A DNA stretch of 64,000 nucleotides from Bacteroidia bacterium (GTDB taxonomy: Bacteria > Bacteroidota > Bacteroidia > Flavobacteriales_D > Sanyastnellaceae), in the NCBI GenBank assembly GCA_030427925.1, contig JAUICJ010000013.1:1-64000 (forward strand), in the 5' to 3' direction. The position numbers and the translations under genes are program-made. Shown in pieces: positions 48,786 to 53,109 of this stretch (its first letter is position 1; every line of letters begins with the position of its first letter). The notes under the pieces are model-generated. The model was given only the letters and a program-made list of their open reading frames with translations, was not told where the DNA came from and did no database searches.

Positions 48786-49247
48786 TCAAAAGGGGACGTC
48801 CCCTTCCGGTTCCGGGGCGATGGGGGCCTCGGGTTGAGCTGCAGGCGCCGAGTTGGCAGGCTGGGCGTCCGCGGTTTCAGCGGGGTGGGGCGGGCGGTTG
48901 CCACTGCCTTCACTCGGGCGGTCCAAGAACTGCATCACGTCCGCCACGATTTCAGTGGTGTAGCGCTTTTGGCCGGTTTGGTCTTCCCACGAACGCGTTT
49001 GCAACTTGCCTTCGATGTAGACCTGAGATCCCTTGCGGAGGTACTGATTTGCTGTTTCTGCGAGGCCGCGCCAGAGCACGACGTTGTGCCATTCGGTTTG
49101 CGTAATGCGCTCACCGGAGTTGCGGTCTTTGTAGGTTTCCGAGGTCGCCATCGGGAAGTTGCACACGGGCACTTGGCTTTGCGTGTAGCGCATTTCCGGG
49201 TCGCGGCCCAGGTTGCCTACGAGGATGACTTTGTTGATGCCTGCCAT
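48786..49247 (-). CDS. ssb: Single-stranded DNA-binding protein
   Basis: 153 residues: an OB-fold (1-112) starting [18 protein letters not shown], with [15 protein letters not shown] and [18 protein letters not shown], then a flexible Pro/Ala-rich linker and the acidic interaction tip EGDVPF (DDDLPF-type). It protects ssDNA in replication and repair; mutY lies 67 nt upstream in the same direction. The -7 box is 4 nt before the ATG. Confidence 0.96.
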
Positions 49248-49314: not shown

Positions 49315-50391
49315 TCAGTCGAGGCCCGCCGTGGCGCGCAGTTCGTCCCAGATCCGTTCGGTCATTCGGGGCCAGGGTTTGGCCTGCGCCTCCTCCCACG
49401 TCAACCAGGCCCAATCCGCCCCCCAATCCGCCCCCGGCCCGTCCACCTCCCACACCCCAAATCGCCCCCAAACCCGCCGGTGGCTCAGCACATGCGCCCT
49501 CCCCGGCACCACCTCCCCCCGCCACGTCGCCCCGGCAACCGGCGCCCGCCACTCCCCACCCGACGATTGCCCCTCCGTCCACGCCCCCGGAAACTCCCAC
49601 AGCCCGCCCCAAATCCCCGCCTCCGGCCGCACCCGCACCGCGACCCGCTCCCCATCGGTCAACACGTGCCCCACCGCGGTCACCTCCACCACCTTCGCCT
49701 TCCCCGCCTTCACCGGTCGCCGCGCGGCCGCTTCCGCCTCACCCGCCGATGCGCACCCTCCCGCCAGCGGGCACTCCCCGCATTTCGGCGCCCGCGGCGT
49801 GCACACCAACGCACCCAATTCCATCATCGCCTCGTTGTGCCGCCCCGGCGCCCGCCGATCCAGCAGCCCCTCCGCGGCCGCCTCCACGGCCCGCCGACCC
49901 GCCGGCCGGTCCACCGGCTCGTCCAGCCCCACGAACCGCGCCACCACCCGATTCACGTTCCCGTCCACCGCAGCCACAGCCTCGCCAAAGCAAATCGAAG
50001 CCACCGCCGCCGCCGTGTACGGTCCGACTCCCGGCAATTCCCGCCAGCCCGCGGCCGTCTCGGGAAACACCCCGTCGAGCTCCTCAACGACCCAGCGCGC
50101 CGCGCGATGCAGGTTCCGCGCACGGCTGTAATACCCCAGCCCCTGCCACAGCTTCAACACCTCGCCCTCCTCTGCGCGCGCCAACGCCTCCACCGTGGGA
50201 AACGCCTCCATGAACCGATGCCAATATGCCGTACCTTGATCGATGCGCGTTTGCTGCATGATGACCTCGCACAGCCACGTTCCGTAAGGGGTCGGAGCAG
50301 CGCGCCAAGGGAGTTCCCGGCGGTGTTTTGAGAACCAATCGTTTAGCGCTTGGGTGGCGGCTTCGACGGGAACATTTTCAGTTTGTTGCAT
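49315..50391 (-). CDS. mutY: A/G-specific adenine DNA glycosylase MutY
   Basis: Removes adenine mispaired with 8-oxoguanine. The 358 residues contain the HhH-GPD core (about 25-190) with LPGVGPYTAAAVASI and the catalytic Asp in AVDGNVNRV, the 4Fe-4S cluster Cys set C-x6-C-x2-C-x5-C in CTPRAPKCGECPLAGGC, and a C-terminal NUDIX-like 8-oxoG-recognition domain (about 225-350). The frame continues upstream across the HU antisense; ATG 50391 (MQQTENVPVEAATQALNDWF) is taken as the start. The coding strand is very G-rich, and Gly/Ala/Arg codons often end in G. It diverges from HU. Confidence 0.95.
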   Translation of the reverse strand: MQQTENVPVEAATQALNDWFSKHRRELPWRAAPTPYGTWLCEVIMQQTRIDQGTAYWHRFMEAFPTVEALARAEEGEVLKLWQGLGYYSRARNLHRAARWVVEELDGVFPETAAGWRELPGVGPYTAAAVASICFGEAVAAVDGNVNRVVARFVGLDEPVDRPAGRRAVEAAAEGLLDRRAPGRHNEAMMELGALVCTPRAPKCGECPLAGGCASAGEAEAAARRPVKAGKAKVVEVTAVGHVLTDGERVAVRVRPEAGIWGGLWEFPGAWTEGQSSGGEWRAPVAGATWRGEVVPGRAHVLSHRRVWGRFGVWEVDGPGADWGADWAWLTWEEAQAKPWPRMTERIWDELRATAGLD

Positions 50392-50420: not shown

Positions 50421-50428
50421 TATTTTTG
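50421..50428 (+). promoter_or_regulatory. -7 box for HU gene
   Basis: TATTTTTG, an exact match to TAnnTTTG, 56 nt before the HU ATG. Unlike most genes here, HU would have a real 5' leader of about 50 nt, possibly used for regulation. Confidence 0.5.
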
Positions 50429-50484: not shown

Positions 50485-50778
50485 ATGACGAAAGCAGACA
50501 TTGTGACCCGCATTGCAGATCAAACGGGCATGGAGAAACAGGATGTTCAGAACACGGTGGAGGCGTTCATGACGACCGTGCGCGAGTCCGTTGAAAGTGG
50601 TGAAAACGTGTACTTGCGAGGCTTCGGAAGTTTCGTTGTGAAGACGCGTGCTGCAAAGACCGGCCGCAACATCAAAGCGAAGCAGTCGATTCAAATTCCC
50701 GCGCACAACATCCCGTCGTTCAAGCCCGCGAAGGAGTTCGTGGATCACGTGAAGGCAAAAGTTCCCGTACAGGGATGA
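50485..50778 (+). CDS. hup: HU family DNA-binding protein
   Basis: 97-residue nucleoid protein. MTKADIVTRIADQTGM begins the N-terminal dimerisation helices, YLRGFGSFVVKTRAAKTGRN leads into the beta arm, and the arm has AKQSIQIPAHNIPSFKPAKEF. It bends DNA and compacts the nucleoid. An upstream open stretch in the same frame is the 5' leader. ATG 50485 is the family start. Its stop overlaps the next ATG (ATGA), so it is coupled to the TPR gene. Confidence 0.95.
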   Translation: MTKADIVTRIADQTGMEKQDVQNTVEAFMTTVRESVESGENVYLRGFGSFVVKTRAAKTGRNIKAKQSIQIPAHNIPSFKPAKEFVDHVKAKVPVQG

Positions 50779-51389
50779 GTTTGAACAAGGGACAGATTGC
50801 CCTGTTGGTCGCGGGCGCTGGGGTGTTTGCTGCGGTGTTGCTCTTGGAGCGCAAGCCGTCGAGTTCAGCCGATGCCGCCATCGCCGAGGTGCAGGCGTTC
50901 GAGTCGGACACCACCCTGTCCCCGGTTGACCGAGCCGTTGCGCTGGTCAATGGCCCGAACCCGATGGAAGGGGTGATGATGTTGCGGGAATTGGCGGAGT
51001 CGGATCCGCCCGAAGTGGATGCGGTCGTTTGGTTGGGCATTTTCTCCGTCCAAAGCGGCCAAATCGACAAGGCCCGCGAGCGCTTCACCCAGGTGCTCGG
51101 GCTCGAGCCCGGTCACTTCGAGGCAACGTTTCAACTCGCCTTGCTCGACATGGAAGACCAAGCGTACGAACGCGCCATCTCGGGCTTTGAAGCGTGCATG
51201 GAAAGCGACCCCACGTTCCACAGCGGGTTGTTCTTTGTTGCGCGATGCTATGACTTTATGGGCCAACGGGAAGCGGCGTTGAGCCGTTACCACGCCTACC
51301 TGCCCTTCGCTCCTGACACCGCGGTGACGGCGAGCGTTGAGGGCTTCATTCAACGATTGGAAGCCGGAGAATCCGGTTCATCAGACTAA
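50775..51389 (+). CDS. Membrane-anchored TPR protein
   Basis: 204 residues. An N-terminal hydrophobic helix (about 8-24, IALLVAGAGVFAAVLLL) acts as signal anchor; the rest contains about three tetratricopeptide units (VVWLGIFSVQSGQIDKARERF, VLGLEPGHFEATFQLALLD and LFFVARCYDFMGQREAALSRY). This is a scaffold-type protein facing the periplasm or, if the anchor is inverted, the cytoplasm. Partner unknown. Linked by ATGA to HU and followed by the small basic protein and RNase G, so these four genes form one unit. Confidence 0.8.
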   Translation: MSLNKGQIALLVAGAGVFAAVLLLERKPSSSADAAIAEVQAFESDTTLSPVDRAVALVNGPNPMEGVMMLRELAESDPPEVDAVVWLGIFSVQSGQIDKARERFTQVLGLEPGHFEATFQLALLDMEDQAYERAISGFEACMESDPTFHSGLFFVARCYDFMGQREAALSRYHAYLPFAPDTAVTASVEGFIQRLEAGESGSSD

Positions 51390-51401
51390 AACCATACAGC
51401 T

Positions 51402-51491
51402 ATGCCAAGCGGAAAAAAACGGAAGCGCCATAAAATGGCCACGCACAAGCGCAAGAAGCGTCTGCGTAAGAATCGCCACAAGAAGAAGTAA
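51402..51491 (+). CDS. 29-residue Arg/Lys-rich protein, ribosome-associated candidate
   Basis: A complete ORF of 29 residues, MPSGKKRKRHKMATHKRKKR then LRKNRHKKK, in which 20 residues are Lys, Arg or His. It begins 12 nt after the TPR gene stop and ends 67 nt before RNase G. Very short, uniformly basic proteins of this type are kept near this locus in Bacteroidetes as far as I recall, and the KRHKMATHKRKKRLRKNR pattern resembles the AURKAIP1/COX24 (mitoribosomal mS38) motif. An rRNA-binding small ribosomal protein is the best guess. Too short for most gene finders, so often missed. Ribosome association is inference only. Confidence 0.7.
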   Translation: MPSGKKRKRHKMATHKRKKRLRKNRHKKK

Positions 51492-51558
51492 GGCATAGCT
51501 CGGGCTGCGGCAATGGGTCGTGGCCCGGGCGTCTTGCCTTGCGCAAACCGATTCGCGC

Positions 51559-53109
51559 GTGAGCAAAGAATTGGTCATCAACTCGACGCCTGCGGGTGTC
51601 GAAATCGCCTTGGTCGAAGATGGTGTGCTCACAGAGCTGCACCGGGATCAGGGAGGGACGGATTATGCTGTCGGAGACATCTATCTCGGACGGGTTAGAA
51701 AGGTATTGCCCAGCCTCAACGCCGCGTTTGTGGACGTGGGGCATGAGCGCGATGCCTTCTTGCATTACTTGGATTTGGGGCCTCATTACCGCACGCAGCA
51801 ACAGTATGTGAAGCGGGTGATGGGGGGAAAGCAGCCGGTTTCGGATTTGGCCCATTTCAAAAAGGAGCAAGAGCTGGATAAAAAGGGCAAGATCAAGGAC
51901 GAAGTCAGTGCTTCGCAATTGGTGCTTGTTCAGGTGGCAAAGGAGCCCATCAGCACGAAGGGTCCGCGCCTCACAGCAGAGGTGACCCTGCCGGGCCGAT
52001 ACCTCGTTCTCGTGCCATTCAGCGACAAGGTTTCGCTTTCTTCCCGCATCAAAGGGGAGGAAGAGCGCACCCGGTTGCGCCGGTTGATGCAGAGCATTCA
52101 GCCTCCCGGATTCGGAATCATCGTCCGCACGGTGGCCGAAGAGAAGGGCGCTGCGGACTTGCATGCGGACTTGGAGGACCTCGTGAACCGGTGGGCTGAA
52201 CTGCACAAGCGGTTGCGCCACGCGAAGCCGGGGAAGCGGGTGCTCGGTGAAATCGACAAGACGAGCGCCGTCCTCCGGGATGTTTTGGCGCCCGATTGCA
52301 CCGCCATCCACGTCAACGAGGTCAAGTTGGCCGATGACGTGCGCAATTACCTGCGGAGCATTGCCCCCGAGAAGGAGGAAATCCTGAAGGTTTCAAAGGA
52401 CAAGGATTTGTTCAACTCCCGGAGCATTCACCGCCAAATCAAGTCGGCATTTGGCCGGCAAGTGAACTTGCGCAGTGGAGCTTACCTCATCATCGAACAA
52501 ACGGAAGCCATGCACGTCATCGACGTGAACAGCGGCGGAAGGAAGGCCGGTGCGAAGGACCAGGAGGAGAACGCGCTGCACACGAACCTGGAATGCGTGG
52601 ATGAAATTGCGCGCGTGTTGCGGTTGCGTGACATGGGCGGCATCATTGCCATCGACTTCATTGACATGGCCAAGCGCGAGCACAACAAGCAGCTCACCGA
52701 TGCGCTGAAGGCGGCCATGGCGAAGGACAAGGCGAAGCACAACATCCAACCGCCGAGCCGATTTGGCGTGGTCGAGATGACCCGTCAACGCGTGCGTCCG
52801 GTCGCGAAGATTAAAACGGCCGAAAAATGCCCCACCTGCAACGGTACGGGCGAGGTCGGCGCTTCCATCCTGATCACCGACACCATCGAGAACAGCCTGA
52901 ACTACCTGACCCAGGCGGAAGGGCATCGGACGTTGACGCTCGTGGTGCATCCGATTGTGGAAGCCTACTTGAAATCCGGTTGGTGGAAATCCCAAATCCG
53001 CAAGTGGCGGAAGCAGTTCGGAGCCACCATCCAATTGGAGTCCAACAGTTCGATGGAATTGTTGGAATACCACCTGTTCAACCAGCTCGGTGAGGAGCTG
53101 ATTACCTGA
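51559..53109 (+). CDS. rng: Ribonuclease E/G family endoribonuclease
   Basis: 516-residue RNase G-type enzyme for rRNA and mRNA processing. An S1-like RNA-binding domain (about 35-125) is interrupted by an extra loop (about 70-110); then follow the sensor region, the DNase I-like catalytic part with HVIDVNSGGRKAG and MGGIIAIDFIDM (catalytic Asp residues), and CPTCNGTG, the paired-Cys zinc link of the E/G family. The frame opens 39 nt upstream, but GTG 51559 is chosen because SKELVINS aligns with the family start. No RNase E C-terminal scaffold is present. It is the last gene of the HU unit. Confidence 0.93.
   Translation: MSKELVINSTPAGVEIALVEDGVLTELHRDQGGTDYAVGDIYLGRVRKVLPSLNAAFVDVGHERDAFLHYLDLGPHYRTQQQYVKRVMGGKQPVSDLAHFKKEQELDKKGKIKDEVSASQLVLVQVAKEPISTKGPRLTAEVTLPGRYLVLVPFSDKVSLSSRIKGEEERTRLRRLMQSIQPPGFGIIVRTVAEEKGAADLHADLEDLVNRWAELHKRLRHAKPGKRVLGEIDKTSAVLRDVLAPDCTAIHVNEVKLADDVRNYLRSIAPEKEEILKVSKDKDLFNSRSIHRQIKSAFGRQVNLRSGAYLIIEQTEAMHVIDVNSGGRKAGAKDQEENALHTNLECVDEIARVLRLRDMGGIIAIDFIDMAKREHNKQLTDALKAAMAKDKAKHNIQPPSRFGVVEMTRQRVRPVAKIKTAEKCPTCNGTGEVGASILITDTIENSLNYLTQAEGHRTLTLVVHPIVEAYLKSGWWKSQIRKWRKQFGATIQLESNSSMELLEYHLFNQLGEELIT

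Follow-up and report, generated by a model that had tools for sequence, protein, structure and literature searches.

The window analyzed here, a stretch of 64,000 nucleotides, carries on its plus strand a set of genes that appear to form an operon. The first of these encodes a 97-amino-acid (aa) HU-family DNA-binding protein (positions 50485 to 50778; PF00216, E value of 2.6e-30) and is followed by genes for a 204-aa TPR protein (50775 to 51389; PF14559, E value of 1.2e-12), a 29-aa putative bS22 protein (51402 to 51491), and a 516-aa RNase E/G family protein (51559 to 53109; PF10150, E value of 2.5e-91). The HU and TPR genes overlap by 4 nt, and gaps of 12 nt and 67 nt separate the small open reading frame (ORF) from the TPR gene and from the RNase G gene, respectively. 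The GTG at 51559 was chosen as the start of RNase G; an alternative in-frame start is located upstream at 51520. The Pfam matches, all on the plus strand, agree with the original prediction, which had placed the small ORF among genes for HU, a TPR protein, and RNase G. Motif enrichment in the window pointed to TATTTTTG at 50421 to 50428 (plus strand) as a candidate for the -7 box of the promoter of this operon. The motif TANNTTTG occurred 15 times in the window compared to 6.5 expected occurrences, and none of 100 shuffled sequences reached 15. The reading of TATTTTTG as a candidate promoter box is based on TAnnTTTG, which we take to be the -7 box consensus. Upstream of HU, two divergent genes are found on the minus strand, encoding an HhH-GPD/NUDIX glycosylase (49315 to 50250), presumably MutY-like, and SSB (48786 to 49247).

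The small ORF runs from the ATG at 51402 to a TAA ending at 51491 and comprises 29 codons specifying the peptide MPSGKKRKRHKMATHKRKKRLRKNRHKKK, of which 17 of 29 residues are Lys or Arg. This basic fraction of 0.59 was the highest among the 689 ORFs of at least 25 aa in the window (the runner-up reached 0.44). It also exceeded that of all 222,744 ORFs that arose when the window was simulated 200 times with an order-1 Markov model; their maximum was 0.48, and none reached 0.50. The extreme basic composition that had been claimed for this tiny ORF was thus confirmed.

The window peptide was used to search the sequences of PDB chains (E value up to 10), and three distinct sequences matched. These were 9i5v_10 (27/29 residues identical; E value of 1.6e-10), named AURKAIP1/COX24 domain-containing protein; 7jil_5 (26/29; 5.5e-10), named 30S ribosomal protein S22; and 8fmw_V (20/28; 9.9e-6), named 30S ribosomal protein bS22. 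The matches spanned 28 to 29 residues, i.e., the whole length of the window peptide, so that full-length matches to ribosome-structure chains (7jil_5 and 8fmw_V) are combined with a size and composition (29 aa, 17/29 Lys plus Arg) that fall within the limits set for bS22 (about 28 to 35 aa, with Lys and Arg making up more than half). A profile built from 47 distinct relatives recovered the same three PDB sequences (E values of 9.8e-15 to 1.8e-11) and nothing beyond them; mycobacterial bS22, mS38, and eL41 were not reached by sequence. On the basis of these sequence matches, the ORF at 51402 to 51491 is almost certainly the gene for bS22, which is a basic 30S subunit protein of small size. The 30-residue sequence represented by 7jil_5 (entries 7jil, 9oz9, 9ozn, 9ozz, and 9p0e) is listed in the PDB both as 30S S22 and as 50S L38, and one of the two names looks like a mislabel.

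The peptide matched no family in Pfam and NCBIfam at E values up to 10. The COX24_C profile (PF08213; membership requires more than 23 bits) was silent on the ORF, and its sole match in the window's own genome (13.8 bits) was located elsewhere; membership in COX24_C was therefore rejected. Accordingly, the proposed resemblance to AURKAIP1/COX24 (mS38) holds for the binding site of mS38 as described in the literature and for the name of one PDB chain but not for the profile. The original prediction had left open whether the peptide is an additional ribosomal protein or an RNA chaperone for RNase G. Its ribosomal half was supported by the 26/29 identity to 7jil_5, but bS22 was known before, as PMC10618245 describes it for ribosome structures from Bacteroidetes, and the window gene is a correct sighting of something known. 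For annotation, the ORF at 51402 to 51491 deserves the name bS22, which two profile libraries miss.

Conservation was assessed in a phylum sample of 296 genomes that were at least 90% complete, with an E value of up to 0.01 counted as a match. bS22 was matched in 288 of the 296 genomes and in 139 of 140 genera, so the conservation in relatives on which the prediction depended was found. The window's own genome contained a single copy (one match in the genome search), and the gene was single copy in nearly all matching genomes (two were listed with 2 matches), as expected for a conserved chromosomal gene. We inspected 72 loci, a nonrandom draw consisting of the 30 best matches, 22 picked among weaker matches, and 20 picked by family. 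They encoded 47 distinct peptides of 29 to 35 aa with Lys-plus-Arg fractions of 0.54 to 0.65, starting with ATG at 70 loci and GTG at 2. The 47 peptides shared 15 invariant columns, and the lowest identity to the window peptide was 79%. One further candidate, L053 (44% identity; E value of 3.61), was discarded as non-bS22. At 14 loci, including the window, the 29 aa were exactly identical; among the 87 bases compared, the other 13 showed 13 to 23 differences from the window gene, while only 51 of the 261 possible single changes in the window gene are silent. These loci were selected for identity, so that the lack of residue changes among them is given by construction. A chance ORF would be compatible with the very short length and with the lack of matches in the Pfam and NCBIfam libraries. 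However, an equally basic ORF appeared in 0 of 200 simulations, all of which stayed below 0.59, and the gene is present in 288 of 296 genomes; together with the PDB chain matches, these results led us to drop this explanation, the probability of which is practically nil.

The second half of the prediction, that the peptide serves as an RNA chaperone for RNase G, was evaluated by synteny, comparing 19 loci from the class to which the window belongs, drawn from families f1 to f6 and f8 to f11, with 53 loci outside this class. RNase G was encoded directly downstream of bS22 on the same strand at 19/19 loci of the window's class, which, together with the strongly basic nature of the peptide, would suit a chaperone or cofactor produced beside RNase G for that purpose. 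In contrast, there was no RNase G in reach of bS22 at any of the 53 out-of-class loci, where the protein is equally conserved; a gene kept with RNase G wherever it is found would not show this pattern (19/19 versus 0/53). Moreover, related sequences are present in ribosome structures, and RNase E/G is still present in 8/8 genomes without bS22. An HU gene was detected upstream of bS22, within a search reach of about 1.5 kb, at 19/19 in-class and 37/53 out-of-class loci, and a recognizable TPR gene was detected upstream at 12/19 and 4/53 loci, respectively. HU is thus the old neighbor of bS22 in the phylum, and RNase G is a newcomer that joined in the window's class only, which argues against a dedicated RNase G chaperone. 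This role was rejected on synteny and is very improbable, and the reading of the operon is corrected in that the old partner of bS22 is HU, not RNase G. The old link to HU could hint at an additional role of bS22 outside the ribosome, e.g., in the nucleoid or as an antimicrobial, and growth inhibition by the C. acnes bS22 peptide is reported in PMC10085706. Gene neighborhood, however, indicates coexpression at most, and we regard such an extra role of the ribosomal protein as unlikely.

Eight of the 296 genomes yielded no bS22 match, neither in the initial search nor with a profile that recovered bS22 in 5/5 control genomes, so that bS22 can be dispensed with in some genomes. Two of the eight (G248 and G295) are assemblies of 310 and 450 contigs, and their missing bS22 may reflect an assembly gap. 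Another three (G147, G195, and G199) make up the complete sample of genus g97 in family f35 and were without a match, including by profile. The remaining three (G227, G274, and G286) belong to genus g77 of the Balneolaceae (f23). In the g77 genomes G081 and G250, the gene order is HU, bS22, a gene for a 216-aa protein on the opposite strand, and a gene for a 530-aa protein. The same neighbors are 118, 95, and 171 nt apart in the three bS22-less species, compared to 290 and 293 nt in G081 and G250, and no basic ORF was found between them (L298, L299, and L300 versus L295 and L297). The three g77 species have thus undergone a clean loss of bS22 from an otherwise intact locus, with no match elsewhere in their genomes. 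This loss in three species of one Balneolaceae genus may be new and, if it holds, provides natural bS22-less species for asking about the role of bS22 in h44 and in subunit bridging.

According to PMC10618245 and PMC10085706, bS22 of other species is a bent helix in a pocket formed by the 16S rRNA helices h2, h27, h44, and h45, and it touches H68 of the 23S rRNA (H67 in another paper). In the mS38 literature, this site is connected with the stability of h44 and with the decoding center, and bS22 is said to contact h45 immediately upstream of the anti-Shine-Dalgarno (anti-SD) sequence (PMC6582356). In these other species, bS22 thus clamps h44 at its top, close to the decoding center, and adds a bridge between the ribosomal subunits, and we infer the same ribosomal role in the window's organism. 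The protein would be expressed there from the HU-TPR-bS22-RNase G operon and would probably be translated without a Shine-Dalgarno (SD) sequence. The window leader contains no SD sequence, paired with the canonical 16S tail at -2.0 kcal/mol, and lacks the extended SD sequence expected for rpsU-type autoregulation; the leaders at the 19 in-class loci ranged from -2.4 to 0.8 kcal/mol. PMC9976891 describes A-rich leaders in Flavobacterium johnsoniae, that of tuf with four adenines; the window leader, with three of these four (at -6, -12, and -13, the one at -3 being absent), comes close to them.

Different leaders were observed in Balneolia. For this comparison, the last 22 leader bases, with starts taken as the first ATG, were paired with GGAUCACCUCCUUU, and pairing at -8.5 kcal/mol or stronger, a threshold chosen after the leaders were known, was called strong. 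Four genomes yielded a 16S tail sequence, which was GGATCACCTCCTTTC in three of them and CCTCCTAGG in the fourth; four others, including the window's, gave no match to the tail pattern, and the canonical tail was assumed for them. A first set, picked by peptide and not by leader, comprised 77 named loci of Balneolia (from 80 stretches listed out of 90; L106 to L185). Strong pairing was found there for 37/77 bS22 leaders compared to 16/424 other ORFs and 32/424 mock windows at the same loci. A second set of 30 further genomes (28 of f23 and 2 of f21; L196 to L225), of which 29 were counted, gave 21/29 for bS22 versus 0/34 for other ORFs and 0/34 for mocks. The two sets partially overlap, and the relatives in them are not independent. 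The motif GGTGA was present in 40/77 and 27/29 bS22 leaders, and many of the leaders lacking it lie closely behind another gene. An upstream gene ending at the TGA within GGTGA was rejected as an explanation, as 0/52 GGTGA leaders were preceded by a 60-codon open frame. A strong SD sequence was also rejected as a phylum-wide mark of bS22, since none of the 19 in-class leaders fell below -2.4 kcal/mol, and was kept for Balneolaceae only. Compared with the local genes in 20 regions of 20 kb, the bS22 leader took first place in 11 regions, a number biased upward because most regions were picked after the leaders were known. In f3 and f17, it came last or almost last, and in f13 and both f24 regions, it took only fifth or sixth place.

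Other ribosomal protein genes were included in the leader comparison. The rpsU start (bS21; L226 to L255) was found in 27/29 Balneolaceae genomes, and 20 of these leaders were of an extended SD-like type, pairing at -11.4 kcal/mol or stronger, while 7 were not; the rpsU leader of the window's genome showed no strong pairing (-2.4 kcal/mol). For bS18, the start of which was found in 15/30 genomes, the strongest leader reached -7.3 kcal/mol. Strong pairing is not confined to bS22, as 11/127 ORFs around rpsU and rpsR reached -8.5 kcal/mol, compared to 3 mocks. A tentative model, which we consider doubtful, is that bS22 synthesis in Balneolaceae is controlled through the 16S tail, like that of bS21 in Flavobacterium. 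In this model, the bS22 mRNA, which differs from most other mRNAs in having a leader that pairs with the tail, would be favored by ribosomes in which the tail is freed. By contacting h45 beside the anti-SD sequence, bS22 would damp its own synthesis. If the Balneolaceae observations hold, control via the 16S tail would have a second candidate among the ribosomal genes, and the natural deletion in g77 would offer ready-made bS22-less ribosomes for comparison. The strong pairing of bS22 leaders in Balneolaceae may be new; like the loss in g77, it is worth a note rather than a claim. The main text of PMC9976891 does not mention bS22, Balneol-, or Rhodotherm-. Among the matches listed, no title or abstract on bS22 or on Balneola combined with Shine-Dalgarno dealt with leader pairing or bS22 loss, which is not proof of unpublished status.

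The closest known counterparts of the window protein are found among the ribosome structures. The window peptide shares its full length with 9i5v_10 (also 9i5x), the differences being S3N, R22K, and one extra residue. It likewise shares its full length with 7jil_5, which we take to be F. johnsoniae bS22, with three substitutions (M12V, L21A, and K23A) and a PDB chain that is longer by one residue at its end. The F. johnsoniae protein is named bS22 in PMC10618245. Borrelia burgdorferi bS22 (8fmw_V; organism according to the same source) is more diverged (20/28 identical), starts with GUG, and was placed in the h2/h27/h44/h45 pocket (PMC10618245). In ribosome structures of mycobacteria and Bacteroidetes, it is bS22 that occupies this pocket (PMC10618245), and one common small-subunit pocket is described for actinobacterial bS22, mitochondrial mS38 (AURKAIP1/Cox24), and eukaryotic eL41 in PMC10618245, PMC10085706, and PMC6582356. 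For the latter three proteins, the likeness in site is taken from these papers, and our PDB, Pfam, and profile searches gave no sequence match. With respect to regulation, the system for comparison is F. johnsoniae rpsU (bS21), which is autoregulated via an extended SD sequence. The bS22 gene of the window has no such leader (-2.0 kcal/mol), and the pairing of Balneolaceae bS22 is weaker than that of rpsU and mostly involves GGTGA and the 5′ part of the tail; however, Balneolaceae bS22 likewise combines a strong anti-SD match with SD-poor surroundings.
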